This document shows positions 4,827-27,027 of a stretch of DNA of 64,000 bases, piece after piece (the stretch's first letter is position 1; the number at the start of each line of letters is the position of its first letter). The DNA lies in NCBI RefSeq assembly GCF_012396015.1, contig NZ_JAAXOQ010000021.1, positions 1 through 64,000 on the forward strand, in the 5' to 3' direction. The notes below the pieces were generated by a model that saw only the letters and a program-made list of their open reading frames with translations, did no database searches and had not been told where the DNA came from. The position numbers and the translations under genes were made by a program. Origin of the DNA: Tsukamurella spumae (GTDB lineage: Bacteria > Actinomycetota > Actinomycetes > Mycobacteriales > Mycobacteriaceae).

Positions 4827-4863
4827 ATGACCGACGGACCCCTCATCGTCCAGTCCGACAAGA
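4827..4863 (+). other. attL core repeat
   Basis: 37 nt that match 26991-27027 with a single difference (C at 4841, G at 27005). The longest perfect match is the 22 nt at 4842-4863 (CTCATCGTCC...GACAAGA), which most likely holds the crossover region. The site lies inside codons 5-12 of the helicase gene, not in a tRNA. Confidence 0.9.
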
Positions 4864-6341: not shown

Positions 6342-6678
6342 GGGGCAGCCCTACTGCCTCGCCCCCTACGTGTTCTTCCGAGACGGCGAGCCTGTGATCA
6401 ACACTCGGATTTCGCTCACGACCCGCAGCGGTGTCCGCAGCGTGGAGGGTCCGTTCATCGTCGCGGAGTGGCTGTGGGACGTAGGTGGGTGGAGCTGCTG
6501 GACCCCGTGCGATTTCCCCACCGCGCTAGAACAACTGGGGATTCCACTGTCCGTGAGCGAGTACGTCATGGAGGAGGTGACTGAGCGGCTAGTGGACTCC
6601 CCACAGGTGAGCATCCTGCTCGACGACGCGCAGTTCCTGGTCGAGCTACTGCCCGCGCCCGCTGTCAACCCACATTGA
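6334..6678 (+). CDS. Hypothetical protein coupled to the XRE-like gene
   Basis: 114 residues from GTG at 6334, which overlaps the preceding stop; GGAG lies about 9 nt upstream. Sequence begins MCEGQPYCLAPYVFF and contains two aromatic patches (AEWLWDVGGWSCWTP). Acidic C-terminal half. No family recognised and no signal peptide. Ends just before a strong hairpin. Confidence 0.55.
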   Translation: MCEGQPYCLAPYVFFRDGEPVINTRISLTTRSGVRSVEGPFIVAEWLWDVGGWSCWTPCDFPTALEQLGIPLSVSEYVMEEVTERLVDSPQVSILLDDAQFLVELLPAPAVNPH

Positions 6679-6708
6679 CAATCCCCTACAGAACAGCCCC
6701 ACAAAACA

Positions 6709-6746
6709 GCTCCGCCCCTGTCCGCGTACTCGGACAGGGGCGGAGC
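6709..6746. terminator. Bidirectional terminator
   Basis: Perfect 16-bp stem GCTCCGCCCCTGTCCG / CGGACAGGGGCGGAGC with a 6-nt loop (6725-6730). It lies between convergent genes ending at 6678 (+) and 6782 (-) and closes the five-gene cargo operon. Confidence 0.85.
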
Positions 6747-6781
6747 AACTTCCCTGCGGTCAGCCAACCAACCGCCGAGGA

Positions 6782-9178
6782 TCAGTTCCCGCTCGGGACC
6801 GCCGACGGGTCGAGCACGGTCTGGTCGTGCTGCACACCCGACCCCAGCGCGGTCGGCGGGCGGGTGCCCTCGTCGGGCTTACCCTGCTGCGGCAGTGACG
6901 GGTCACCCGACGTGGACGCGCCCGCCCCGTCGGGCTTACCGCCAGGCGCGCCAGGCTGCCCCGCGCCAGGCGCGGGCTTGGACCCGTCATCGGGCGTGGG
7001 CGAGTTCGACGGCTGCGGGATGCCTGCATTCGCCCCAATGCCCGCACCGCCAGGCTGCGCACCGCCCTGACCGCCTGCACCGTCGGCGGGAGCGGGTCCA
7101 ACCCCGGGTACACCTGCACCAGGAGCGCCAGCACCAGGTGCGCCAGGCTGACCGCCCTGCTGTGCGCCGCCCTGCTGTGGGGTCTGACCTGCATCACCTT
7201 GCGGAGGAACAGCACCCTGCGGGGCGTCACCTGCGGTGCCGTCGAGCTTGAAGAAGCCGTTGCCGGTGTCCCCGAACTGCAAGTCCTTGAAGTTGTGCGT
7301 CTTACCGTCCTCACCGATCACCTTGCCGTCACCGATGACCTGGTACATCTTCCCGTCCTTGTCCACGGCGGCGTCACCGACCTGCGCCTGCTGCGGGGAC
7401 ACGGGCTGACCGACCAGCTCACCCACAGGCGGCAGGTTGATCCCCGCCTGCGCGGCGGCGTTGGAGAAGCTGGCGGGGTGCTCGGGTGTACCACGGCTGA
7501 GCAGCTCACCGAGAGCGGCGGACTTACCGCTGGGGTAGGTCACGTCCTTGCCCGCGATCTTCACGGTGTTGTCGGGCTTGCTGTCCTGCGGCGCTGCGGG
7601 CACCCCAGGCTGACCCTGCGGAGGCTGCGGTGTACCAGGGGCGGCGGGCTTGTCCTTCTCGTCCCCAGGCTTGACCTCGGAGCCAGGAGGCGGTGTCACC
7701 TTGGGACCGCTGTCCTTTCCGTCCTTCTCCGCCTTCTCCTTCTCAGCCTTCTCCTTCGCCTTCTTCTCCTCTTCCTCCTTCTTTTTCTTCTCTTCCTCTT
7801 CCTTCTTCTTGGCTGCCTCTTCCTCAGCCCTCTTCTTGCGCTCTTCCTCCGCCTTCTTGATCGCGTCCTCGTCCTTCTTGTCGTCCGTCTTGCTCGGCTC
7901 GACCTTCTTCGGCTCGTCCCCACTCGGGGTGTTCGACGCGGGCTTGGCGGACTGCGGACCACCGCCGCTGTTGCTGCCACCGCCGAGACCTGGGATGTTC
8001 GCGCTGGGCGTGGTAGCCGCAGGCGTGGTGGTCTTCGGCGTCTGCTGCTCCATCATCTTCTTGATGTCATCCGTCGTGAGCGGCTTGGTGCCCTTGTTGT
8101 CCTTGTCGTCGTTCCCCTTGTTGTCCTCAGGCTTGGGCGTGCCCGGGGTCGGCGTGGACGGCTTCGGGGTGGGAGTGGGTGTGGGCGTCGGGGTGGGGGT
8201 GGTCGTCTTGGCGGGAGCGGTCACTACCTCTGATACTTCACCCGATTCGAGCGCGAGGTTCCAGCTCTTCGCCTTGCTCACCGCCGTGGTCAGCGTTGCG
8301 TTCGCGGACACGAGAACGTTCTTCGCCGCGTTCGTTACTTCTTCGGTCATCAGTTTTTCCCCGCGCAGCGGGTCGCCGCCGTTGACGAGCACATCGCGCG
8401 CCTTGTCCGCCTTCTTCGTCAGTGCGAGCCAGAGGGTGTTGATCGCGTCGCGCGCGGACGTGCCCGAGGTCGTGGTCTCGGCGGGCTTGTCCTTCCCGCC
8501 GAGGATGTTGATGGGCGACCCGCCGCCCGTGGACTTGCAGCCCGTTAGCGCGGAGCAGAGCGCGTCCACGGGGCTGCTACGCAACGCCTTCGCGGTGTTC
8601 TGCCGCCCACCCGTCCAGAGCTGCTGGACGTAGGTGTCCTCCTTGACCTTCCCGCTGTTGTACACCTGCGTGAGGCTGTTGTCGGACAGCTCATCGAGCT
8701 TGGACTTGAGCGCGTGGATCAACTGCGTTGTCTCGGTGAGCTGTGTGATGTCATCTGGACGACCCGAGCCCTTACGCCACACAGCCTTTTCCGCGTTCGG
8801 GTTGTTCCCGTCAGGGTCGGGGAACGCGAACATCTTCGCGACAGGGCGCAGGTTCGCGTCCACCGCTGCGAATGCGGCATTCGACGCGGCGATCTTCTTG
8901 AGCACGCGTGTCGCGACTTCCCGCGCCTGCGCCTCCTCGCGGCTCCCGAACGGATCGGTCACCGTGTCCTTGATAGCGGCGATGGGATACAGCGGGTTCC
9001 AGATGCTCATGCCCGAGCCCGGTCCCGACACCGCGCTCTCGGCGCGGCGAAGCACGTCCTCGGGATCGCGCGGGATCATCGGGAGCGCGCGGTTGTCGCC
9101 CTTGGGCACCGCGTTGTCGCCCTCGCGGCACTGCCCGCACACGTCGGCGTACACCTTGTCGATGAGGTTCTTACCCAT
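6782..9178 (-). CDS. Large low-complexity cargo protein with charged helix and C-terminal NlpC/P60-like module
   Basis: 798 residues from ATG at 9178 (MGKNLIDKVYADVCGQC) with AGGAGG 10 nt upstream. Residues 1-330 are helical with Cys pairs (CGQC; CSALTGC). About 345-400 is a TPTPTP-type linker, about 480-560 an uninterrupted Lys/Glu helix like a TolA single alpha-helix. About 600-680 contains a fold-like stretch (AAAQAGINLPPVGELVGQPV ... QAQVGDAAV ... YQVIGDGKVI) resembling the back half of NlpC/P60 domains but without a recognisable Cys/His pair. The tail is Gly/Pro/Gln-rich. No signal peptide or membrane helix. Last gene of the operon that begins at 12456. Possibly a surface or type VII-exported protein; unproven. 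Confidence 0.7.
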   Translation of the reverse strand: MGKNLIDKVYADVCGQCREGDNAVPKGDNRALPMIPRDPEDVLRRAESAVSGPGSGMSIWNPLYPIAAIKDTVTDPFGSREEAQAREVATRVLKKIAASNAAFAAVDANLRPVAKMFAFPDPDGNNPNAEKAVWRKGSGRPDDITQLTETTQLIHALKSKLDELSDNSLTQVYNSGKVKEDTYVQQLWTGGRQNTAKALRSSPVDALCSALTGCKSTGGGSPINILGGKDKPAETTTSGTSARDAINTLWLALTKKADKARDVLVNGGDPLRGEKLMTEEVTNAAKNVLVSANATLTTAVSKAKSWNLALESGEVSEVVTAPAKTTTPTPTPTPTPTPKPSTPTPGTPKPEDNKGNDDKDNKGTKPLTTDDIKKMMEQQTPKTTTPAATTPSANIPGLGGGSNSGGGPQSAKPASNTPSGDEPKKVEPSKTDDKKDEDAIKKAEEERKKRAEEEAAKKKEEEEKKKKEEEEKKAKEKAEKEKAEKDGKDSGPKVTPPPGSEVKPGDEKDKPAAPGTPQPPQGQPGVPAAPQDSKPDNTVKIAGKDVTYPSGKSAALGELLSRGTPEHPASFSNAAAQAGINLPPVGELVGQPVSPQQAQVGDAAVDKDGKMYQVIGDGKVIGEDGKTHNFKDLQFGDTGNGFFKLDGTAGDAPQGAVPPQGDAGQTPQQGGAQQGGQPGAPGAGAPGAGVPGVGPAPADGAGGQGGAQPGGAGIGANAGIPQPSNSPTPDDGSKPAPGAGQPGAPGGKPDGAGASTSGDPSLPQQGKPDEGTRPPTALGSGVQHDQTVLDPSAVPSGN

Positions 9179-9192
9179 GTCGATTCCGCCTC

Positions 9193-9591
9193 CTATTTCA
9201 CGCTCACGTTCGGGAGCTGCTCGACGGTCTGCTGCACCTGCTGTGCGGCGGTGTCCTGCGTTGCACGGGTGCTCTTCGAGAACGTCTCCAACGCGTTCGC
9301 GTCTGCGTTCATCGCGGCGGGGATTTCGCTGACCTTCTGCTTGATCGCATCCAACGCCTCGACCAACGCGGCGCGCGGTCCCTTCCACACGTCAGGCAGC
9401 GGGCACCCGGCTACCCCTTCTGTCACTTCACGGTCGAAGCTGGCAAGGATCGCGTCGCACTCGGCGCTGATGTCGAAATCGGAGCTGTGCGCACGGATCG
9501 ACTTCACGGCGGATGCGATCCGCTCGTGGTCGATGGTGCTCGACTTCTTGTTGGGGTTTGTCGGCGTCTGCCCGACCGGGGAATCGCTCAT
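9193..9591 (-). CDS. Small helical protein, WXG100-like
   Basis: 132 residues (MSDSPVGQTPTNPNKK...), almost all predicted helix. A VWKGPRAALVEALDAI segment in the middle recalls the W-x-G turn of WXG100 proteins, though it is W-K-G here. Two Cys (SAECDAI, AGCPLPDVW). No YxxxD/E export signal is visible. 14 nt upstream of the large cargo gene, so co-translated with it and a plausible partner. Confidence 0.6.
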   Translation of the reverse strand: MSDSPVGQTPTNPNKKSSTIDHERIASAVKSIRAHSSDFDISAECDAILASFDREVTEGVAGCPLPDVWKGPRAALVEALDAIKQKVSEIPAAMNADANALETFSKSTRATQDTAAQQVQQTVEQLPNVSVK

Positions 9592-9681
9592 GGGGAGAGC
9601 CTCCTATCTGTCCTTTATCCATTCGACCGCCGCGTGAATTGTTCGCGCCACTCACGACACGCACGGTCGGGTGCAGACACA

Positions 9682-9738
9682 CCACCGCCCCGTAGCGCCG
9701 AGGATCAGGACAGATAACGGCGCGCTACGGGGCGGTGG
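9682..9738. repeat. 17-bp inverted repeat inside the cargo operon
   Basis: Perfect arms at 9682-9698 and 9722-9738 (CCACCGCCCCGTAGCGC and its complement) separated by 23 nt. It lies in the 219-nt gap between the 127- and 132-residue proteins, the only long gap in the operon besides an 83-nt one. It could attenuate transcription, protect an mRNA end or bind a regulator. The spacer is long for a simple terminator. Confidence 0.6.
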
Positions 9739-9810
9739 GCAATGGCGGGGCTCTCCCCGTCTCTTCCAGTGTCGGCGCGTCAGCGGACGATGCGCGAGCG
9801 CCGACACGGC

Positions 9811-10194
9811 TTATACGTCAATCGTCCCGTCGGGATGCTGCACGCCGCCCGCCACGAACTTCGGAGCCGTCGCCTTCGGCGTGGGCATCGTCGGGATCAC
9901 CGCTTCCGTCTTCTTCACGCCACGCTCGGTCTGCTCCTGAATCTTGCGTGTCCCTTCAACGTACGAACGGATCGCGGCGGCTTGCTGATTGAAAAGCGGC
10001 GCAGTGTTGCTCGCAGCGTTCGCGGCGGCGGTCTGATACGACGTGCCCGCCGTCTTCGCGGTCGCGGTCGCGCGGGCGTCCGCCGCGCCCGACGGGGCGC
10101 TGGTCGGCATGTTCACCAGGTTTCCTGCCTCGGTTTCGAGGCTGCTCGCCAGCTTCTCCAACAGGTCGAGGTGTGCCTTGCTGACTGTTGCCAT
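9811..10194 (-). CDS. Small Ala/Thr-rich helical protein, ESAT-6/WXG100-like size
   Basis: 127 residues. Residues 1-90 look like two antiparallel helices (AHLDLLEKLASSLETEAGNL, then RATATAKTAGTSYQTAAANA to EGTRKIQEQTERGV) joined by a Pro/Gly turn, as in ESX-type small proteins, but there is no W-x-G and no YxxxD/E. The C-terminus is an extended Pro/Thr tail. GTAGGAGACCAC precedes the ATG. Third gene of the SOS-box operon. Confidence 0.6.
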   Translation of the reverse strand: MATVSKAHLDLLEKLASSLETEAGNLVNMPTSAPSGAADARATATAKTAGTSYQTAAANAASNTAPLFNQQAAAIRSYVEGTRKIQEQTERGVKKTEAVIPTMPTPKATAPKFVAGGVQHPDGTIDV

Positions 10195-10225
10195 GATCGT
10201 GGTCTCCTACGTGGTCTATGAGGGG

Positions 10226-11581
10226 TTACGGCTTCGGGGGAATCGGCGGAGGGACGGGTGCCTTCCCGTTCGACCCCGGCGGCGGAGGGGTGACGGGCTT
10301 GCCGTCATCGTCGTCGCGCACGATGCCGCCCAACGCTTGTTGCGCGATGTCCTCTGCGCTCATCTTCGGATCGGTGCTCTTCACTTCGCCCTTGGGGCGA
10401 GCGGTGCCGCCTGCGCCGTGTCCGGCTCCCGCGCCTCCCATCATTCCGCCCATCATCGGGCGTGCGCCCGTGCTGTTGGTGCCCGACGTAGTTCCGCCTC
10501 CTACTCCGCTGCCGATGCCGCCGCCCGCCTTGTTGGCTTGCTGTCCACCAGCGGGCGAAGCGGTCGAGCCGCCACCCGACCCGCTGCCGATCACGCCACC
10601 CTTACCAACAGGCGGGGTATTGCCCTGTGGCGACGAAGGCGGAGTAGAAGGACGCACGCCGCCGCCCTTGTTCCCCGAGTCGGTACGGATCGGCTGCACG
10701 GCAGGAACGGGAACCGCGCTGCTCGGCTTCGCGCCCTGTCCCCCTGCGGGTGCACCGCCAGCGGGAGCCGCCTGTCCACCTGCCTGGGGCGCACCCTGCT
10801 GTCCTTGCTGCGGGCTCTGCTGCGGAAGCTGCTGCGCCTGCTGGTTCGGGGGCTGCTGTCCCGTCGGCGTCTGCCCCTTGTCATCGACGCTGTTCTTGTT
10901 CGCCGCGTCGGGCGTCGTGTCAGTCGGCTTGCTCGGGGTGTTGCTCGACGGCTTCGCGTTCCCGCCCGTATTCACGCGCGGAGCGGGCGCGGAGGGAGCC
11001 GTCGGGGGCGCGACGTTGTTACCTGTCGGCTCGAATCCCGTTTGGAGAGTGAGCTGCCCCTGCGCCTTGCCGACGGATTCGGTCGCGTCACGCGCGTGTC
11101 CGGGGAGGCAGTCGAGATTCATCTGCGTGCCAGCGACCCCGTTGTCGAGCACCAGCTTCCGCCCAGCGCGGGCATTCGTCTCTGCGGCCTGCGCGCTAGC
11201 CATGTACGCAGGGCTGCCGCCCATTGAGGCAATGACTAGCGCCTGCTGCTTCGCGGCCACCGCCTTGGTCAACGATGCGGTCGCGAGCTTGTACTGCTCC
11301 TGGAACGTCTCTTCGTGCGAACCCTGCTTGATCGCGGCCTTGCCCGCCTCCGAGAGAGCCGCACCTTGGGTGGTGCACGCTTGAGCGAGCGCGTCCAAGC
11401 TCTTCCGCAGTGATGTTGGGAACGTGCCCTCACCCGCGATCTGCAACGCCAGCGTGCGATGCCCGATGGCGGTGACCTGATCACCACGCGACTTCCACGC
11501 GCGGCCCAACTCGCCAACGCCGCTCACGCCTACCTCAGCCTGCGACTCGGGCGGGTCAACGCCTTCTACTGGAATAGCCAT
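10226..11581 (-). CDS. EspB/PPE-like architecture: helical N-domain plus Gln/Pro/Gly-rich tail
   Basis: 451 residues from ATG at 11581 (MAIPVEGVDPPESQAE); the 13-residue upstream extension lacks a ribosome site. Residues 15-175 are amphipathic helices containing GELGRAWKSRGDQVTAIG and KSLDALAQACTTQGAALSEA, similar in layout to WXG/PPE-type helical bundles. From about residue 190 the chain is low complexity (Pro, Gln, Gly, Ala) up to MMGGMMGG and a short acidic DDDDGK near the end. No signal peptide. I infer relatedness to type VII substrates from architecture only; no family match can be shown here. Confidence 0.62.
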   Translation of the reverse strand: MAIPVEGVDPPESQAEVGVSGVGELGRAWKSRGDQVTAIGHRTLALQIAGEGTFPTSLRKSLDALAQACTTQGAALSEAGKAAIKQGSHEETFQEQYKLATASLTKAVAAKQQALVIASMGGSPAYMASAQAAETNARAGRKLVLDNGVAGTQMNLDCLPGHARDATESVGKAQGQLTLQTGFEPTGNNVAPPTAPSAPAPRVNTGGNAKPSSNTPSKPTDTTPDAANKNSVDDKGQTPTGQQPPNQQAQQLPQQSPQQGQQGAPQAGGQAAPAGGAPAGGQGAKPSSAVPVPAVQPIRTDSGNKGGGVRPSTPPSSPQGNTPPVGKGGVIGSGSGGGSTASPAGGQQANKAGGGIGSGVGGGTTSGTNSTGARPMMGGMMGGAGAGHGAGGTARPKGEVKSTDPKMSAEDIAQQALGGIVRDDDDGKPVTPPPPGSNGKAPVPPPIPPKP

Positions 11582-11664
11582 GTCGTCCTGTTCCTCCGTG
11601 TAGATGTTTCGCCTGCACATCTATTCCACGTGGAATCGGACTCTTCGCGCGACTTCCGACACGC

Positions 11665-12456
11665 TCACTTCGTGAGCAGGTGCGCCCCACCGCCGAGCTT
11701 CGAAAGCTGCGACGCGACACTGGGCCACGGAATCACCGAGCCGCTGGCGATGCTCACCATGCCCACCAACTGATCGCCAACTACTACGGGTCCGCCACCA
11801 TCACCCGGCTGCATCGTCGGCACAGGGAAGAAGCAAGTCTCCCCGCCGTGAATGAGGTCGCACTTTGTTGGCGTGGTCGTCACCGCTCCCGTGAACGTCG
11901 AGGAGGTGTGCTCGGCGGCGGGAGCCGTGGAAGCACCCGCCGACGTTGCGGTGGGATGCACATTGCTCGCCAGCTTCACAGCGACCACCTCGTACTCGGA
12001 CTCCCCGAACAGCAGGACGCTGGCAACGGTTCCGAGCGTTGTGCCGTCGGTGGCAATGGCCGCGCGCCCCTCGCGCGTGCGCGGGATTGCTGCACCCGCG
12101 AGCGCCCATGTGGTCGAGCCGTCAGTCACGAGTGCGCCGACAGAGACGATGGTCTGGTTACTGCCCGAGGCGATGGCTATCGCGTCGCCTGCTCGCAGGG
12201 AGACTGGCTTCGCTGCGCTCGCGGGGATCGATGTACGAGAGATGCATCCCGTGTCGCCAGGAGTGACGACGCGACACTGGACCTTCTCCATTCCCGAGAC
12301 ACGCTCAGCGGCGGCAGAAGAACCACCCGCAGCGGTGGAGGTAGCCCCCGCCGCGCCCGTGCTCGTGACAGGAGTGCCGTCGATCTTGTCCGCGCACCCC
12401 GACAGAGCACCCGCCGAAATCACGAGCGCCGCGATCATCGCTGCTGTCCTGCGCAT
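11665..12456 (-). CDS. Lipoprotein with a degenerate chymotrypsin-like (S1) domain
   Basis: 263 residues from ATG at 12456, chosen because AAGGAG is 6 nt upstream; the ATG two codons earlier would have no spacing. Residues 1-20 are a signal peptide ending in the lipobox ALSGC, followed by a Ser/Ala/Thr linker. The C-terminal part contains KCDLIHGGETCFFPVP and PGDGGGPVVVGDQLVGMVS, closely matching the active-site loop of S1 proteases (GDSGGP), but the nucleophilic Ser is Gly. No TAAHC-type His motif is seen either. It is probably a membrane-anchored pseudoprotease that binds rather than cuts. First gene of the five-gene operon, behind a LexA-like box. Confidence 0.75.
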   Translation of the reverse strand: MRRTAAMIAALVISAGALSGCADKIDGTPVTSTGAAGATSTAAGGSSAAAERVSGMEKVQCRVVTPGDTGCISRTSIPASAAKPVSLRAGDAIAIASGSNQTIVSVGALVTDGSTTWALAGAAIPRTREGRAAIATDGTTLGTVASVLLFGESEYEVVAVKLASNVHPTATSAGASTAPAAEHTSSTFTGAVTTTPTKCDLIHGGETCFFPVPTMQPGDGGGPVVVGDQLVGMVSIASGSVIPWPSVASQLSKLGGGAHLLTK

Positions 12457-12479
12457 GGTCATCTCCTTCGTCTGCCTAA

Positions 12480-12508
12480 ACGGTAACCCGAACATTTGTT
12501 CAGGTCTA
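12480..12508 (-). promoter_or_regulatory. Promoter with LexA-like SOS box for the cargo operon
   Basis: On the + strand CGAACATTTGTTCA (12489-12502) fits the actinobacterial LexA pattern CGAAC-N4-GTTCG except for the final base. On the - strand it lies exactly in the 17-nt spacer between a -35-like TAGACC (12503-12508) and a -10-like TACCGT (12480-12485). The predicted transcript start is about 15-20 nt before the lipoprotein ATG. This suggests DNA-damage induction of the cargo operon. Confidence 0.6.
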
Positions 12509-12764
12509 GTCATGACGCACGAACCCCCTGTGCGAAGCCTGTTTTCATGTCACGTCCCCCGCGATAGCCCTACCGCACGATCACGTGCACATTCCCATCT
12601 CCCTGCTCAACCCACACCGTCCAGATCATCGCGCGGGACAGTCCCGCATGTGCGGTGCTTTGCGGTCGCAGTATCCGTCAGCCCACCTGGCGTCCGCTTG
12701 GCAACGCCCAATCGAGCGCCCGAGGCCCGATCCGCCCTCTTCCGCGCCCGATCAGGCCCCAGCG

Positions 12765-13237: not shown

Positions 13238-14191
13238 GTGCATCGCGTGCGCAGTCCGATTCCCTACTACGGCTCGAAAGCCCGCCTGGCCGACAACATC
13301 GTTTCGCTCATGCCCGAGCACAGGCGCTACGTCGAGCCGTACTGCGGTGGGCTGTCGGTGCTACTGGCGAAACCACAGTGCCGCAGCGAAGTCGTGAATG
13401 ACTTGGACCAGTCGATCATGACGTTCTGGCGCGTGCTGCGAGACCAGCCAGACGAGCTTGCTCGGGTCTGCGCGCTTACCCCGCACAGCCGCGAGGAGAG
13501 GAATCTCGCCAAGTCGATCCCCGCCGATCTGGACGACATCGAGGTTGCGCGGCGGGTCTGGTCAGCGCTCGTGCAGGGCAGGGCAGGCACTTTGATCAAC
13601 ACGGGGTGGAAGCACTCCACGGACTCGGGCCACTACCCGATTCCCCGCTCGATGAGCACGTCGGTCGAGCGCATGGCGGAGGTCAGTGAGCGATTGCGCG
13701 GGGTGTCCCTTGAGTGCAGGCCCGCTCTCGAAGTCATAGCGCGCTACGGCGGCGACATGGACACGCTGCTGTACGTGGACCCGCCGTATCTGGGGGAAAC
13801 GCGGAGGCGGAACTACCGCGTGGAGATGGCTGGGGCGAGGGCGCACCGCGAGTTGGCGACGGCTCTCAGGGAATGCAGGGCCACAGTCATCCTCAGCGGC
13901 TACGAGTCCGAGCTGTACGCCGAGCTGTTCGCGGACTGGCACCGAACTGAGTTCCTCGCACGGACGGAACAGTCTCCGATTGGGCGCGACGGCAGCCGCA
14001 CGGAAGTGGTCTGGAGCAACAGGGAGTTTCGTTACACAGGCGGCGAAACCGATGACGGATGTAACGAAACTCGACCCTCCTGCGGGCACTGCGGACGGGT
14101 GATCCCGAAGCGCTCCACGGGGCGTCCCGCGCGCTTCTGTTCGGGTGCGTGTCGGGTCGCTGCGCACCGCGCGCGGGCGTCGGCGGTGTAG
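13238..14191 (+). CDS. Dam-type DNA adenine methyltransferase with C-terminal zinc finger
   Basis: 317 residues from GTG at 13238 (MHRVRSPIPYYGSKARL); GTG at 13247 is an alternative. Motif I is PYYGSKARLADNI with VEPYCGGLSVLL. Motif IV, LYVDPPYLG, gives DPPY of N6-adenine methylases of the D12 (Dam) class. The last 45 residues, CNETRPSCGHCGRVIP ... RPARFCSGACRVAAHRAR, form a C-x2-C ... C-x3-C zinc-binding finger, an add-on seen in some actinobacterial and phage proteins. No restriction endonuclease is adjacent, so it is a solitary methylase. It may mark or protect the element's DNA, or affect its gene expression. Confidence 0.85.
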   Translation: MHRVRSPIPYYGSKARLADNIVSLMPEHRRYVEPYCGGLSVLLAKPQCRSEVVNDLDQSIMTFWRVLRDQPDELARVCALTPHSREERNLAKSIPADLDDIEVARRVWSALVQGRAGTLINTGWKHSTDSGHYPIPRSMSTSVERMAEVSERLRGVSLECRPALEVIARYGGDMDTLLYVDPPYLGETRRRNYRVEMAGARAHRELATALRECRATVILSGYESELYAELFADWHRTEFLARTEQSPIGRDGSRTEVVWSNREFRYTGGETDDGCNETRPSCGHCGRVIPKRSTGRPARFCSGACRVAAHRARASAV

Positions 14192-14767
14192 CTACTCCTC
14201 GTCGATGTACCGCCGTGGATTGAGACGCGCCACCCTGTCGATGGTGATTGGGAAGTTGAGCACCTCGGCGGTCTGTTTGACCTCCTTCTCGTCCGCGCGA
14301 GGATGGGCGAGTGCTCGCTGATGTGCGGCGGGGAGTGCTACTCGCAGCGCCGATAGTTCGTCGTACAGCACTCCGTACATGAAGTTGGTGTTCTGATCCT
14401 CCGCGACCTTCCGCCGCTCCCGAATCCGCTCGATGCTCTCCGTCAGGACGCGCGCGCACGACGGCGACACCACGTCGATAGCTATCGAGTGGCTCACCAG
14501 TCGCGCGTGTAGGTCCGCGAGATGTTTGCCGCCAGGCGCGAGCTTCTCGCCCAGGTCCGCCTCGTCGGCGCTGAGCATCGCCAGCTCATCGTTGGCGAGG
14601 GTGATCACAGCGGTGACGTGCTCAGTCACGAGAGTTCGGGCGAAGCTCCGCAGTTCCCTTCTGTTCTGATGACGAACAGTCCAGGTCGCGATTCCGACGG
14701 CGGTCAGGGACGACACGGCGCTAAAGATCGTCGTACCCCACGGCAGTAGCGATTGCACAACGCTCAT
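14192..14767 (-). CDS. Single-span membrane protein, unknown
   Basis: 191 residues from ATG at 14767; the longer frame upstream is shadow. One membrane helix near the N-terminus (SLLPWGTTIFSAVSSLTAVG), then a basic stretch (RHQNRRELRSF) and a soluble helical domain inside the cytoplasm (EHVTAVITLANDELAMLSAD ... ESIERIRERRKV). No enzyme motif. Its stop abuts the stop of the methylase gene, so the two are convergent, and it is divergent from the resolvase. Confidence 0.65.
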   Translation of the reverse strand: MSVVQSLLPWGTTIFSAVSSLTAVGIATWTVRHQNRRELRSFARTLVTEHVTAVITLANDELAMLSADEADLGEKLAPGGKHLADLHARLVSHSIAIDVVSPSCARVLTESIERIRERRKVAEDQNTNFMYGVLYDELSALRVALPAAHQRALAHPRADEKEVKQTAEVLNFPITIDRVARLNPRRYIDEE

Positions 14768-14866
14768 GCGGTGAGAGTAGATGTGCGCTCCGTCCAACCG
14801 CGCGGGACATGACATCTCCGTGTTCCCGCCCGCCGTCGATTCGACACACGATGGGCTCCGACAGGA

Positions 14867-15000
14867 TGTCGCGGAACCGACCGTCTGCGCGACAGCGCGC
14901 GGCGCGACGGTTCTCGCAGCTCGGGTTGTCGCAGATTCCTGTCGCAGAATCGAGGCGACGAAACTGTGTCGCACATCGGGTGTAGACCATCGTTGCGCGA
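14867..15000. promoter_or_regulatory. res-like cluster of TGTCGC motifs upstream of the resolvase
   Basis: TGTCGCG (14867-14873) faces CGCGACA (14888-14894), giving a 28-bp inverted site, the size of a resolvase subsite. Further copies are TGTCGCA at 14927, 14940 and 14967, with inverted GCGACG at 14955 and GCGCGACG at about 14995. The cluster ends about 20 nt before the resolvase start, where Tn3-type res sites usually lie. It may also act as the gene's operator. Confidence 0.55.
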
Positions 15001-15020
15001 CGATTCGGGAGGAGCAGGAC

Positions 15021-15629
15021 GTGAACGACAACATGGTCACGGTCGAGGGTGCGAGAGCCGTCGAGGGGCGCGTGCTCGGGTACGCGCGCGTTTCGACGGT
15101 CGAGCAGGACGAGGGCCTACAGCTCGATGCACTCGACCGCGCAGGGTGCTCGGCGGTGTGGACCGATCACGGTGTGAGCGGGTCCACGACGAGCCGCCCG
15201 CGACTCGATGCACTCCTCGCGGAGTTGTCCGGCGGGGACACGCTCGTGGTCTACAGCCTGTCGCGCCTGGGGAGGAACCTCAGCCACCTCGTCGTCCTCA
15301 CCGCCGAGCTGGCAGAGCGAGATATCGCCCTCGTGTCGATCACCGAGCAGATCGACACATCGTCCGCAAGCGGGCGCATGGTCATGCACATCTTCCTCGT
15401 GCTCGCCGAGTTCGAGCGGGCGCTGCTCAGCGAACGAACCCGCGCGGGACTTGCCGCTGCTCGGGCGCGGGGTGCGCGCCCTGGTCGTCGCCCTTCCCTC
15501 AGCGTCGAGCAGGTGCGCCATGCGCGGCTGCTGGTCGCGGGCGGGGAATCGGTCGGTCACGTGGCGGGGAGCATGGGCGTGCACCGCGCGACTCTGTACC
15601 GCGCGCTCGGGGCAGCGACGGCAGAGTAG
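15021..15629 (+). CDS. Serine recombinase of the resolvase/invertase type
   Basis: 202 residues from GTG at 15021, with GGGAGGAGCAGGAC just upstream; the earlier in-frame ATG gives a spurious 80-residue extension. Catalytic domain: LGYARVSTVEQDEGLQL with the nucleophilic Ser (S of RVST), YSLSRLGRNLSHL, FLVLAEFERALLSERT. C-terminal Hin/resolvase HTH: GRRPSLSVEQVRHARLL ... VGHVAGSMGVHRATLYRAL. Small resolvases of this size separate multimers or invert short segments, rather than integrate. In this element it may resolve dimers of the circular form at the motif cluster just upstream. Confidence 0.9.
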   Translation: MNDNMVTVEGARAVEGRVLGYARVSTVEQDEGLQLDALDRAGCSAVWTDHGVSGSTTSRPRLDALLAELSGGDTLVVYSLSRLGRNLSHLVVLTAELAERDIALVSITEQIDTSSASGRMVMHIFLVLAEFERALLSERTRAGLAAARARGARPGRRPSLSVEQVRHARLLVAGGESVGHVAGSMGVHRATLYRALGAATAE

Positions 15630-16574: not shown

Positions 16575-17786
16575 TTACTTCGCTCCCTTGAGACGGAGGT
16601 ACGTCGCCGACGCTGATTGCTGCGCCTGCTCCGCCGTCCGTGAATAGGCGGTACCGACGTACCGACCAGAACGGACGACGCAGAACGTGGCGGTCTGTGC
16701 GGTATTCGCCAGGGGGACCGCCATGCAGCCTCCGAACTGTCCGGAGATGCCCGCGATGGGTTGCTTCACCCCGCTGTACATCTGGCTCATGTACTCCGCA
16801 GATGCCTTGTCGTCGGTGAAGCGCAGGACCACGTTCAGAGCAGCACGCCCGAACCGCTCCAAACCGTCGATAGTCTCGTGCGAGTTCAGTGTGTACGTAT
16901 GCGCGTCTCCCCAGCCGTCGAGGGGCGCGGTCTTCGATGACAGTCCCGATGCGCCCTGCGCTTCCGACGGTGGCGCGGTCAGGCCCATGATCCCGTCGTC
17001 GTCCATCGGCACGGCAGGGATCACCGACTGTCCCTGCGCGAGCGTGAACGGGGTCTGGCGATAGTCGCCGAGCTTCGCGACCTGCGCAGCCATCGCCTTG
17101 CCCACTACGTCGAATACCGTCGCTGCGGTGGGGCCGCCCGCTGCGGTCGGCACCATCATCCCCGACACCACCACGAGGTTCCCGCGCGCGACCATCGTGG
17201 TGAGCGAGGCAATCCCGACCGCGCTGTTCGCGCCGAGCATGGTCAGCGTCGCGTCGCGCACGGGGAAGTTTGCAGGCACGTTGTGTTGTTCGGAGGGGTT
17301 CTTGTCCGCGATCAGTGCGACCGCCCGCTTCGCCGATGCCTCGTCGGTGAAGCGGAGAATCCCGACCCGTAGTCGGGTCTTGTTCTTGTCGTCGCCGCAC
17401 GCGATGAACCCCGTCTGGTATCCGTTGCTGCCCGCGATGTTCGCCTGCTCGGTGGACATCGCGGCGGTGGCCTTGGTCAGCGTTGCTGCCGAAAAGGCGG
17501 GCGCGGCGGTGTCGTCGTTGTCGCTGCACGCTTTCGTCAGCGAGGGGTAGAACGCCCACGGCGTGACGACGGCAGAAGCGATCCGCCACCCTTCCTGCTG
17601 CCAGGCGTCGAGCGCGTTGCCCGCCTCCACCTTGCGCGGCGAGGTCGGGAATCCCCCTGTGTTGAGCTTGAACTTCGCTGCCACGCTCGGGTCTGGCACG
17701 GCGGTGCCCGTGACCGTCGAGCAGGCGCTGAGCGTCACGGCGACCGCAGCTATCGCAATGGTCAGTGGTGTCCTTCGTCTCCCCAT
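16575..17786 (-). CDS. DUF7373-type lipoprotein
   Basis: 403 residues. A short signal peptide ends at the lipobox TLSAC; the mature N-terminus STVTGTAVPDPS is typical of mycobacterial lipoproteins. The body has the layout of the DUF7373 family: TGGFPTSPR start, then two related halves (ACSDNDD ... FIACGDDKNKTRL; FGGCMAVPLANTAQTATFCV) with paired Cys likely in disulfides. Function of the family is unknown; it is outside the membrane. Divergent from the small secreted protein at 17928. Second lipoprotein of the element. Confidence 0.75.
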   Translation of the reverse strand: MGRRRTPLTIAIAAVAVTLSACSTVTGTAVPDPSVAAKFKLNTGGFPTSPRKVEAGNALDAWQQEGWRIASAVVTPWAFYPSLTKACSDNDDTAAPAFSAATLTKATAAMSTEQANIAGSNGYQTGFIACGDDKNKTRLRVGILRFTDEASAKRAVALIADKNPSEQHNVPANFPVRDATLTMLGANSAVGIASLTTMVARGNLVVVSGMMVPTAAGGPTAATVFDVVGKAMAAQVAKLGDYRQTPFTLAQGQSVIPAVPMDDDGIMGLTAPPSEAQGASGLSSKTAPLDGWGDAHTYTLNSHETIDGLERFGRAALNVVLRFTDDKASAEYMSQMYSGVKQPIAGISGQFGGCMAVPLANTAQTATFCVVRSGRYVGTAYSRTAEQAQQSASATYLRLKGAK

Positions 17787-18275: not shown

Positions 18276-19292
18276 TCACCCGACCAAGCGCATCGGAGTA
18301 GACGCGGAGTCGACGGTGGGCAGCTCCCCCATCTCCCGCGCGGCGCGGACAATCCGCTGCACCGCGCTGTAGCTGAGCCCGTCCACCTCCTCGGCAACGC
18401 GCCGTGACGATGCGCCCGAGACGGTGCGCATCAGCACGATGTGCACGGTCTCTGGGTCGGCAGTGGTGCGTCCCGCACGCACCAGCGCCTCAGCGAGCGA
18501 GGCAAGCGCATCGCCCTGGTGCGGCTCGGGTGCACCGTCGCGCACCACGTCGAAGTCAGTGGTGCGGGGCTCCGCATCAGGCGCATCGGACGGGTGCACC
18601 ACCTCGGGCGTGAGTGCATCGGCGAGCGCATCGCCCGAGGTCACGAGCTGGTGCGGACCTGGTGCGGACACTGACGCGCCCGTGTCAGGGTCCGAGGCCG
18701 GAGCGGTGCCGTCAATGGGCCGTGCATCGCCTGGTGCGGGGTCCGCACCATCGCCCGCACCCTCTGGTGCAAGGGCGTCAGCCTGGTGCGCATCGTCGGT
18801 GACGGTCGCCCCAGCGGTGCGCATCGCGGCGCGGTCAATCGACACGAGCACCGCCGTCGCGACGACTACTGGCACGTCCAAGAGCACGGGCAAGAGAAAG
18901 GCCCAGCCCTCGGGCCACCCGCCGTGGACAGAGCCCGCAGCCTGGTACGGCATCAGGGCGAGGGATTGCAGAGTCACGAACGAGACCACACCCGCACCTG
19001 CCGCGAGGACAGCGACCGCACCCGCCGCGCAGTTGTAGAGCGCGCCTCCGAGCTGCGCGGCGGCGAGGTGGGACAGGCCGTGGATGAGCAAGGCCAGCAG
19101 GATCGGCGGGATGATCGAGAGCACGACCTGCACGGGAAGGGACACCGCGATACTCGCGATGTTGTGCAGCGCGTTGCCGATGATGCTCAGGGCCAGCGAC
19201 AGCCAGATGAGACGGGCGAAATAGCGGCGCGCCCGCTGAACGGGAGTCGGCGTCGCCGTCGGGCGACGGCGGAACAGGGTAGGCAAGGTCAT
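18276..19292 (-). CDS. DUF2637 (SpdB-like) membrane protein with C-terminal HTH
   Basis: 338 residues. Four hydrophobic helices lie between about residues 28 and 160 (IWLSLALSIIGNALHNIASI; VVLSIIPPILLALLIHGLSH; AAGAVAVLAAGAGVVSFVTL; AFLLPVLLDVPVVVATAVLV), the DUF2637 pattern linked to spread/transfer genes of actinomycete plasmids and ICEs. Residues 165-270 are an acidic Ala/Asp/Pro linker. Residues 275-325 (SGASSRRVAEEVDGLSYSAV) look like a helix-turn-helix. Last gene of an operon from 21831; its start overlaps the previous stop (ATGA). Confidence 0.78.
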   Translation of the reverse strand: MTLPTLFRRRPTATPTPVQRARRYFARLIWLSLALSIIGNALHNIASIAVSLPVQVVLSIIPPILLALLIHGLSHLAAAQLGGALYNCAAGAVAVLAAGAGVVSFVTLQSLALMPYQAAGSVHGGWPEGWAFLLPVLLDVPVVVATAVLVSIDRAAMRTAGATVTDDAHQADALAPEGAGDGADPAPGDARPIDGTAPASDPDTGASVSAPGPHQLVTSGDALADALTPEVVHPSDAPDAEPRTTDFDVVRDGAPEPHQGDALASLAEALVRAGRTTADPETVHIVLMRTVSGASSRRVAEEVDGLSYSAVQRIVRAAREMGELPTVDSASTPMRLVG

Positions 19293-21831: not shown

Positions 21832-21913
21832 AGTGCATCTCCGCTTGGCCTCGAAGGGAGGGAGAAATCGGCGGCGAGGAGCGATTCACGCGGGAGGAGG
21901 CCCGAAATCGCGC

Positions 21914-22215
21914 GGACCCTCCGCTCTGTGACCACGGACCCCCCACTGCGTCCTCCACAGAAAACCGCAGGTCGGCGCGGACCCTCCGTACCCTCCGTGC
22001 CCTCCACTGCGGGGGTCGGAGTCTGAGCACCCTCACGCGTCAGCCTCAGCTCGCCCCAAGAGCAGAGAGAATGCACTATATTAAACTTCTTCTGTTGCAG
22101 GGGGGTGAGCGCTGAGTCAGTCGGAACGGCACTCAGGCGGAGGGTACGGAGGGCACGGAGGGTCCGCCCTGACCAGGCGTTTTCCGTGGAGGACGCGGTG
22201 GAGGGTACGGAGGGT
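21914..22215. repeat. Iteron-like array with central AT-rich stretch, candidate replication origin
   Basis: Tandem 9-bp units of ACCCTCCGT type: 21981, 21990 and 21999 (last one variant) on the + strand; reversed units ACGGAGGGT/C at 22137, 22146, 22155, 22198 and 22207; a single GGACCCTCCG at 21914. Between the two opposed groups lies an AT-rich stretch, 22069-22098 (ATGCACTATATTAAACTTCT). It fills the 418-nt gap between the replication-type ATPase gene and the DUF2637 operon. Opposed iterons around an AT-rich segment beside a rep-like gene is how theta origins look; an operator array for the operon is the alternative. Confidence 0.6.
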
Positions 22216-22249
22216 CCGATACCCCGCCGCGAGGACGTGGAGTTGATCA

Positions 22250-25733: not shown

Positions 25734-26987
25734 GTGGGCTACAGGGGTGTCCGTGGCGGGGTCGAGGACCGATGGGTCAAGCGGGTTCGCCAGAGCGATG
25801 GCTCATGGTCCGAGGTGCCGTCCGCCAAGCACGGCGTGGAGTCCCGCTGGCGGGCTCGGTACGTAACGGACGACTCCACCGAGGTCGAGAAGGTCTTCAA
25901 GGTCAAGCGCGAGGCTGAGACGTGGCTCCGCGCGCGGCTCGCCGAGGTGGACAGCGGCAAGCATGTCCCCCGCTCCAAGGGGAAGGTCACCATCGGCGAC
26001 ATCCACCGCGAGTGGAGCACCGGACAAGGGCACATCGCCAAGAGCACCGCGATCCAGCGTGCCAGCACGTGGAAGGTCCACGTCGCGCCGAAGTGGGAGA
26101 AGAAGCCCGTCGGCGAGGTCAAGCCCAGCACCGTGCGGACGTGGATCGCAGAGATGGTCTCCGAAGGCACAGGAGTGCCGTCCATCGAAAACGCCCACGG
26201 TCTGTTGAAAATGATTCTCGATGCAGCGGTGGAGGATAAGCGGATCGCCCAGAACCCCGCAGCAGGAGTACGGCTCCCGAAACGGGATCATCCCGACCGT
26301 GGCTACCTCACTCACCTGCAACTTCGCGAGCTTGCCGCACAGTGCGAGGATGATGAACTGGTGGTGCTAACGCTGGGGTACACGGGGCTGCGCTGGTCGG
26401 AGATGGCGGCGTTGCGCGTCCAAGACATCGACTTCACACGACGACGGATCAATGTCTCGCGCGCTGTAGTGGAGGCGAGCAAGCTCGTATGGAAGACGCC
26501 TAAGTCAACCGAGCGGCGTTCGGTCCCGTTCCCCTCTGCTCTCGCCGCCTCTCTCGCCGAGCAGGTGAAGGGCAAGGCGCGAGGCGACCTGGTGTTCACG
26601 AACACACAGGGGAATGTGCTCCGCGTCGGGACGTGGCGGAATAGAGTGTTCCGTCCCGCTGTGGCGCGTTGTCAGAGTTCCGACTCGATGTTCCCTACAG
26701 TCACCCCTCACGACCTACGCCACACTGCGGCGTCCCTCGCGGTGTCCGAAGGCGCGAACGTCCTTGCTCTCAGGAGGATGCTCGGACACTCGAAACCGAG
26801 CATGACCTTGGACGTGTACAGCGACTTGTTCGACTCCGACCTCGATGAGGTCGCCGCGAACCTGGACGCCGCCATCGAAGCCCTCGCCAAGAACTCCTGC
26901 GGGATTGCTGCGGGATCGAAGCCTGATCACGAACCGTTCACATGGGACGCTGGACCTGCTACCAGCACAAATAAGGACAGGAACTGA
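25734..26987 (+). CDS. int: Tyrosine integrase
   Basis: 417 residues from GTG at 25734. N-terminal arm-binding and SAM-like core-binding domains (about 30-190), then the catalytic domain with the full set of residues: Arg in GYTGLRWSE, Lys in PKSTERR, HDLRH, GHSKPS and the nucleophile Tyr in LDVYSDLF. It recombines attP with the 5' end of the helicase gene. The right arm repeat lies inside its last codons (SCGIAAGSK region). It ends 3 nt before the helicase ATG, so integrase and host helicase may share a transcript. Confidence 0.95.
   Translation: MGYRGVRGGVEDRWVKRVRQSDGSWSEVPSAKHGVESRWRARYVTDDSTEVEKVFKVKREAETWLRARLAEVDSGKHVPRSKGKVTIGDIHREWSTGQGHIAKSTAIQRASTWKVHVAPKWEKKPVGEVKPSTVRTWIAEMVSEGTGVPSIENAHGLLKMILDAAVEDKRIAQNPAAGVRLPKRDHPDRGYLTHLQLRELAAQCEDDELVVLTLGYTGLRWSEMAALRVQDIDFTRRRINVSRAVVEASKLVWKTPKSTERRSVPFPSALAASLAEQVKGKARGDLVFTNTQGNVLRVGTWRNRVFRPAVARCQSSDSMFPTVTPHDLRHTAASLAVSEGANVLALRRMLGHSKPSMTLDVYSDLFDSDLDEVAANLDAAIEALAKNSCGIAAGSKPDHEPFTWDAGPATSTNKDRN
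26898..26918 (+). repeat. Right integrase arm-type repeat
   Basis: TGCGGGATT, 2 nt, TGCGGGATCG, within the 3' end of the integrase gene. Same orientation, same internal spacing and 19 of 21 bases identical to 4950-4970 at the other end. Confidence 0.7.
26937..26965 (+). promoter_or_regulatory. Element-borne promoter candidate for the helicase
   Basis: TTCACA (26937-26942), 17-nt spacer, TACCAG (26960-26965). The start would fall near 26972, leaving a short leader with AGGACAGGAA before the ATG at 26991. The native leaderless promoter stayed at the left end, so this or integrase read-through must drive the helicase. Weak -10 match; inference. Confidence 0.35.
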
Positions 26988-26990
26988 CTC

Positions 26991-27027
26991 ATGACCGACG
27001 GACCGCTCATCGTCCAGTCCGACAAGA
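26991..27027 (+). other. attR core repeat
   Basis: Matches 4827-4863 with one difference at 27005. If the crossover is in the 22-bp perfect stretch (27006-27027), the bases 26991-27005, including the ATG and the first codons, come from the element. The substitution (CCC to CCG) is silent, so the element carries a functional replacement of the host gene's start. Confidence 0.9.

Follow-up and report, generated by a model that had tools for sequence, protein, structure and literature searches.

The first 64,000 nucleotides of contig NZ_JAAXOQ010000021.1 of Tsukamurella spumae (assembly GCF_012396015.1), here called the window, hold an integrative element of ~22 kb (about 4864-26990). Five of its minus-strand genes, P1 to P5, are best explained as a type VII (ESX) substrate and cell-envelope cassette, carried by an element without an ESX core and using a resident ESX machine, a reading to which we give a probability of about 0.57. 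ESX machines are protein exporters and also partners in plasmid transfer; to our knowledge, the role of many extra proteins near plasmid-borne ESX cores is not known. The reading draws on several results: P5 and P1 have homologues in cassettes of this kind and have lost catalytic residues, P4 has an Esx/PE-like predicted fold, EccB is absent from the window's contig, and ESX genes are present elsewhere in the host genome. The case for membership in an ESX-associated core-less cassette is strong for P5, good for P1 and fair for P2 and P4; P3 is at most a candidate. All five are intact open reading frames (ORFs) without internal stops, each with an ATG start (P1 12456, P2 11581, P3 10194, P4 9591, P5 9178), a purine-rich ribosome-binding site and coding-like third positions. 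A preliminary description had proposed five minus-strand genes, among them an S1-like lipoprotein pseudoprotease and a 798-residue protein with charged and NlpC/P60-like stretches, followed by a terminator, and had likened them to a type VII substrate module without a core gene in the element. These proposals stand, the last through the clustering of P5-type genes with EccB, similar modules elsewhere, the P4 model, the P2 tail and the host ESX genes; no ESX protein was found among 20 element ORFs scanned with Pfam.

The best-supported member, P5, consists of an N-terminal part of no recognised fold, Thr/Pro linkers, a charged stretch, a degenerate NlpC/P60 domain (7139-7546) and a Gly/Pro-rich tail. 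Residues 545-680 belong to an alignment, A1, whose profile finds NlpC/P60 chains in the PDB (best E 2.3e-12); A1 contains four intact NlpC/P60 members, with P5 as its first row, and this match characterises the family of the alignment. The block holding the catalytic Cys is absent from P5 and its nearest relatives, and the His is not kept in P5. Inactive NlpC/P60 proteins of the RipD type (NCBIfam NlpC_inact_RipD) are similar in having lost catalysis; P5 differs in lacking the catalytic Cys block and in carrying the domain inside an 800-residue low-complexity protein. A PspA match in P5 is weak (1.7e-5, far below cut-off) and covers its Pro/Thr-rich middle, and a search of phages with P5 gave no match. 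The protein ends in VLDPSAVPSGN. LD[PS][SA] occurs within the last 15 residues of 5 of 18 P5-like proteins (mean 0.04 and maximum 2 in 2000 shuffles), tails that are not all independent, as those of L079 and L124 have a recent common origin and L033 hardly differs from L074. One P5-like gene, in genome G435 (L124:7201-9735), ends in SALDPSAVR near a 1085-aa ORF, with no S1-like neighbour in 19 kb, and is perhaps a second kind of core-less carrier.

To count P5-type domains, profile A1 was unusable, since it matched 301 of 301 genomes owing to its four intact NlpC/P60 rows, and a seven-row alignment, A2, took its place. P5-type domains proved rare: with a cut-off of our choosing (E<=1e-15), A2 found them at 22 places, spread over 17 of the 401 family genomes. 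Nine of these places have EccB within 35 kb (G008 C16, G305 C35, G338 C5 twice, G394 C2, G232 C1, G259, G312 C79 and G356 C2) and ten have it within 60 kb, the tenth being in G005 with EccB at 55 kb. The expectation within 35 kb is 1.06 of 22, and none of 1,000,000 random draws reached nine; this statistic treats the places as independent, with four of them in G005 and two each in G305 and G338, and the 35-kb distance was chosen by us after viewing the list. Another G005 place corresponds to the Tsukamurella tyrosinosolvens record L031, where EccD, mycosin and an EccE-like protein (98.6 bits, cut-off 108) lie 10-16 kb away and the 302-kb record holds no EccB. For the place in G334, a Rhodococcus plasmid carries an almost identical counterpart, and EccB is found there at a distance of 41 kb. 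Ten unlinked places comprise two in G005, the window itself, one in G283 and six on EccB-less contigs of other draft assemblies, including the G435 locus.

This linkage, far above chance, argues against an envelope or conjugation-exclusion module unconnected with type VII secretion, in which P1 and the element's DUF7373 lipoprotein would sit at the surface and P2-P5 would stay inside the cell or leave by some other route. Such a module would fit the missing YxxxD/E export motif and the recurrence of lipoprotein-like proteins in the window element and in a T. tyrosinosolvens element. It sits less well with the Esx-like predicted fold of P4 and with P2-P5 having no Sec signal, and we consider it quite unlikely.

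P1 carries a lipobox, and its relation to the S1-like secreted proteins rests on an iterative profile, which found 12 S1-like ORFs among the fetched loci, and on the resulting alignment; the Pfam Trypsin model reaches only E 0.073. In the 13-row alignment His-Asp-Ser is kept in 11 rows, whereas P1 has Ala-Glu-Gly and a homologue in the congener G015 has Ser-Ser-Ala. Judged by its sequence, P1 is a pseudoprotease of the S1 family with all three catalytic residues replaced. A tblastn search of plasmids with P1 gave no match. The triad-less G015 protein (L011:10318-13973) is the closest P1 homologue found; it follows a 169-aa ORF and a 473-aa protein and lies behind small ORFs in which W-x-G was noted by eye. 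By eye, its locus looks like a type VII toxin-immunity locus, with the 473-aa protein and the 169-aa ORF resembling toxin and immunity genes.

S1-like ORFs accompany P5-type genes in 9 of 18 P5-type loci scanned, that is, in 7 of 16 distinct regions (L031/L034, L032/L036, L033, L037, L079, L125 and L127). Along L031 (NZ_LR134450), an S1-like lipoprotein is followed by a protein whose tail is EspB-like, then by two small proteins, a C40 peptidase and a protein of 724 aa that has a Met-rich tail; beyond these lie another S1-like protein, a protein annotated with a PPE domain, a P5-like protein and an annotated transglycosylase. Besides its P5-like protein, L033 encodes three S1-like proteins, one small protein, a C40 peptidase, a protein of 434 aa whose tail is Met-rich, and a protein that by eye resembles the L031 transglycosylase. 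Similar S1-like/EspB-like/small helical/P5-like modules thus occur on a T. tyrosinosolvens record and a Rhodococcus plasmid. Two records of T. tyrosinosolvens NCTC 13231, L031 and L032 (NZ_LR134447), have the same ORFs as the congener G005. Both were deposited as plasmids, yet these ORFs sit in a 4.95-Mb contig of G005, and the records may be chromosomal pieces. An annotated type IV coupling-type gene suggests a conjugative nature for L031.

The nearest parallel to the window cassette is the T. tyrosinosolvens element L032/L036, which encodes a P5-like protein, a 282-aa ORF and an S1-like protein with an intact triad. Its integrase is related to that of the window element (E 6e-74), and its small protein has a relative on L031 (E 1e-7, eight sequences compared). 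EccB is at least 500 kb away in G005 and absent from the 250-kb record. DUF7373-related proteins are also found there (E 3e-9), and DUF7373 lipoproteins may travel with the cassette.

The window set shares with the ESX-near gene sets of Mycobacteriales plasmids and elements (NZ_CP023721 with EccB; NZ_LR134450 with EccD, mycosin and an EccE-like protein and no EccB) its P5-like, S1-like, EspB-like Met-rich-tail and small helical proteins, mostly annotated as hypothetical. It differs in having no core gene on its element, no wall hydrolase seen and an S1-like protein without a triad. These differences would be explained if the five genes were a decaying remnant of an ESX plasmid cassette, functionless now: the catalytic residues are lost in both enzyme-like domains, the C40 and transglycosylase partners are not seen and no core is present. 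Decay is harder to reconcile with five open frames that keep coding-like third positions and ribosome-binding sites, with a retained terminator and C-terminal motif, and with perfect pairing in the structured stretch between P3 and P4. Moreover, the P5-type relatives that make up A2, among them plasmid members, also have a degenerate NlpC domain. We therefore regard a remnant as unlikely.

The long protein P2 and the small proteins P3 and P4 have no convincing family-model match, and P2-P5 lack a hydrophobic N-terminus. The preliminary description had called P2 EspB/PPE-like. A Met-rich Gly tail motif is found in P2 and in six of seven ESX-locus proteins compared. Among 398 distinct ORFs of at least 200 aa, taken from the window and from loci of at least 7 kb, 13 including P2 have the motif, and the other 12 are all in ESX or P5-type loci; this count is supporting evidence only, the motif having been derived from ESX-locus proteins and most loci having been fetched for ESX or P5. 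The P2 tail thus bears a fair likeness in sequence to those of EspB/PPE-like proteins of ESX loci. A search of genome contigs for related loci with P2 found nothing.

P3 and P4 had both been called WXG100-like. Neither matches the WXG100 model (PF06013) at E<=1, while the same model matches four other places in the genome. Modelled alone with AlphaFold2, P4 has a mean predicted local distance difference test (pLDDT) score of 81, helices at 22-38, 42-59, 67-88 and 90-124, and WxG at residue 69. In a Foldseek search with this model, ranks 1-37 were all Esx, PE or WXG100 chains, with a best E of 0.54 and none <=0.001. In VIA-align, ESCRT-III, F1-ATPase and other long-helix proteins scored equal or higher Z, and Esx was not singled out. 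P4 is a candidate WXG100/PE-like hairpin by predicted fold, with WxG near the turn as in these small secreted proteins; it differs from them in lacking a Pfam match and YxxxD/E and in having an N-terminal extension. For P3, the sequence did not bear out the assignment, and P3 matched nothing in a search of viral contigs for related loci or in a tblastn search of plasmids. A profile of six small proteins from L031, L032, L033 and L037 gave P3 7.1 bits, equalled by 3 of 200 shuffles, and gave P4 a score equalled by 23 of 200. The profile failed to single out P3 and P4, and we do not claim homology to the six, which also lack YxxxD/E.

The host could supply the missing machine. The window belongs to the start of an 85,287-base contig (C14) of a 4.46-Mb genome in 79 contigs. 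This contig has no EccB, and the genome's two EccB matches are on contigs C25 and C19. C19 has EccB, EccC and an EccA-like protein (below its cut-off), C25 has EccB, EccD and mycosin, and C22 has another EccC; WXG100 proteins are encoded on C25 and C22. With these ESX genes on other host contigs, a core-less cassette could be served by the host.

Prophages of Mycobacterium abscessus offer a precedent. According to an excerpt of a published study (PMC8092301), they carry WXG-100 toxin-immunity cassettes near their attachment sites, export through the host's ESX-3 or ESX-4 is proposed, and lipoproteins are predicted among the immunity proteins in several cases. That excerpt already describes type VII substrates without their machine on prophages, as toxin-immunity cassettes, and to call the five genes an undescribed system, as had been done, is too strong; in the titles and abstract openings searched, no description of this cassette was found. 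The window set shares with the prophage cassettes its ESX-type substrates, an integrated element without a core, a place near the attachment site and a lipoprotein. It could itself be a polymorphic toxin-immunity cassette of the prophage type, with a long protein as toxin, the small helical proteins as ESX targeting partners and P1 as immunity protein, as the company of the G015 homologue would also suggest. We consider this improbable. Neither a toxin domain nor a recognisable immunity pair is seen, and Pfam, NCBIfam, PHROGs and PADLOC give no toxin family match in P2 or P5. P5 ends in low-complexity sequence with a tail motif common to its relatives, its relatives on L031 and L033 accompany wall hydrolases, and P5 and P1 are of the plasmid-cassette type.

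If the five genes are a type VII substrate cassette, its type would be the one that ESX-bearing plasmids and elements of Mycobacteriales carry near the secretion core, kept here by a core-less element. P2-P5 would be exported by the ESX machine of the host or of a co-resident plasmid, and P1 would be anchored outside the membrane. The catalytically dead P1 and P5 may bind wall or protein partners instead of cutting. The likeliest purpose of the cassette, guessed from the neighbours of the relatives, would be a remodelled or marked envelope that lets the element or the host take part in DNA transfer. The P1 promoter would probably be held back by LexA, and expression of P4 and P5 probably by a folded mRNA leader that hides a ribosome-binding site. 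Further still, the element could be a transfer parasite with integration and replication functions and no transfer machine, the ESX counterpart of a satellite that borrows its helper's machine. DNA damage would then release RNA-gated ESX substrates and dead wall enzymes and make the ESX system of the host or of a resident plasmid a mating aid; we hold this rather unlikely. As a substrate cassette, the core-less element would be a minimal natural set for studying such proteins and their dependence on host ESX, with T. tyrosinosolvens as a second case in the genus and with the LDPSAV-type C-terminal motif and the possible ribosome-site lock as two concrete handles.

Several results weigh against a substrate cassette served by a resident ESX machine. 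No relaxase, FtsK/TraB-type or type IV transfer gene was found among the 20 scanned element ORFs, a scan outside which several small ORFs fall, and a role in transfer is therefore a guess. Three deposited plasmids with P5-type domains are typed as non-mobilizable, two of them perhaps chromosomal. EccB is not within 60 kb at 12 of the 22 P5-type places, seven of them on contigs of other draft assemblies, and 9 of the 18 scanned P5-type loci have no S1-like ORF. No second occurrence of the exact five-gene set was found. A C-terminal YxxxD/E motif is carried by one partner of type VII substrates, and there is none in P1-P5. Searches of 150 other genomes detected no relatives of P3 or P4, a tblastn search of plasmids gave none of P2, and the fetched ORFs contained none of the N-terminal part of P5. 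The structure model of P2 residues 1-194 (with one residue before) has a mean pLDDT of 44.9, too poor for a fold search. The Asp to Glu change in P1 is conservative, which weakens the loss of the triad. Finally, no LexA-like box precedes the cassette in ten other loci scanned.

As for expression, CGAACATTTGTTCA is the sole GAACN4GTTC in the window. Shuffling gives 0.61 expected matches, and 42 of 100 shuffles have at least one; its presence alone is therefore not significant, and the argument is its position ~40 bp before P1. Genome-wide, CGAACN4GTTCR matches 14 times, at 10 distinct sites, and the reversed pattern 3 times. Eight sites are inside called ORFs, some of doubtful frame, and two are before genes, namely the P1 box and one before recA, identified by eye. 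In an excerpt of PMC9380542 the Streptomyces LexA consensus is given as tCGAAC-N4-GNNCGa. CCGAACATTTGTTCAG has a perfect core palindrome and departs from TCGAAC-N4-GTTCGA at three of its four outer positions; the recA box departs at one position and the two lexA boxes at two each. SOS control of the cassette, as the preliminary description had it, appears plausible from the core palindrome and its place, as before recA, and is weakened by the outer positions. The box had also been read as the spacer of a promoter, for which a consensus scan of 6650-12700 gave no support, finding no sigma-70-type promoter. The only such box in the ten other loci is at L031:34187, near a helix-turn-helix gene. 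Behind P5, the hairpin at 6746-6709 has the longest stem of five terminator-like sites in the hairpin scan (4.0 expected).

The 219 nt between P3 and P4 are strongly structured, which makes it doubtful that the five genes form a single transcription unit, as had also been proposed. The minimum free energy of this gap is -122 kcal/mol (z -6.3), compared with z of -1.3 to 1.5 in six other window stretches and -2.9 to 2.0 in seven gaps of relatives. It holds perfect inverted repeats of 10, 10, 17 and 10 nt (mean 0.04 in 1000 shuffles, none with at least three). In a tile scan, three perfect 10-nt inverted repeats were also found near 18543 and near 21974, one of these being the origin-like repeat described below. 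The gap has two hairpins, of 17 and 10 bp, and two further pairings of 10 bp each, both perfect, that lie over the P4 ribosome-binding site. In the predicted fold, transcript positions 210-219, directly before the P4 start, pair with 53-62. Positions 197-206, directly before the GGAGG (207-211), are complementary to 95-104, which belong to the loop of the 17-bp hairpin; pairing here would form a pseudoknot, which is beyond what the folding program can predict. The two pairings could hide the P4 ribosome-binding site. The plus strand folds as well as the minus strand, and the fold score therefore cannot separate an RNA from a DNA function; the gap may alternatively have a DNA role as an origin or transfer site. 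It has no DNA relatives in plasmids or phages with which covariation could be followed, and we therefore infer the ribosome-site lock from anatomy.

Table 1. Coordinates of the cassette and of other features of the integrative element in the window
Feature	Position	Strand	Basis or remark
P1, S1-trypsin-like lipoprotein, 263 aa, lipobox LSGC	11665..12456	-	ORF, profile and alignment
P2, Gln/Pro/Gly-rich protein with Met-rich tail, 451 aa	10226..11581	-	tail motif
P3, small alanine-rich protein, 127 aa	9811..10194	-	no family reaching cut-off
P4, predicted small helical hairpin, 132 aa, W-K-G near turn	9193..9591	-	AlphaFold2 model
P5, NlpC/P60-like protein, 798 aa	6782..9178	-	profile and relatives
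LexA-like box CGAACATTTGTTCA	12489..12502	.	~40 bp before P1 start
Structured stretch between P3 and P4, 219 nt	9592..9810	-	folding and inverted repeats
Terminator-like hairpin after P5, 16-bp stem, T-rich tail	6709..6746	-	hairpin scan
Left copy of 37-bp end repeat (attL)	4827..4863	.	repeat comparison
Right copy of 37-bp repeat (attR)	26991..27027	.	at 5' end of downstream gene
Tyrosine integrase	25734..26987	+	Phage_integrase 1.8e-22; phrog_1 3.9e-67
D12-class (Dam-like) methyltransferase and serine resolvase	13241-15629		
DUF7373 lipoprotein	16575-17786		match 2.6e-21

The element is flanked by a 37-bp direct repeat whose copies are 97% identical, and the gene starting at 26991 is, from its position, presumably an XPB-type helicase gene. 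In each of the 15 congeners searched there is a match, and it stops at base 4863 of the window. In four examined closer, the match continues into the downstream gene, as at an unoccupied right end, and in G006 it runs unbroken from the upstream gene. At this site the congener G015 has a much smaller insertion of ~3.8 kb (L110), whose left end is related. In addition to the genes of Table 1, the element encodes helix-turn-helix proteins, a DUF2637-like protein and a primase/polymerase with relatives in Gordonia and Mycobacterium phages. No Rfam family matched in the element. Ahead of the methyltransferase gene, 14 GATC sites are clustered within 727 bases; this is not notable, since up to 16 occur in 700 bases elsewhere in the window. 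The interval that separates the primase/polymerase gene from the following ORF (21912-22218) has GGAGGGTACGGAGGGTCCG-type units, repeated and inverted, around an AT-rich stretch, and from their sequence these repeats look like an iteron-type replication origin.

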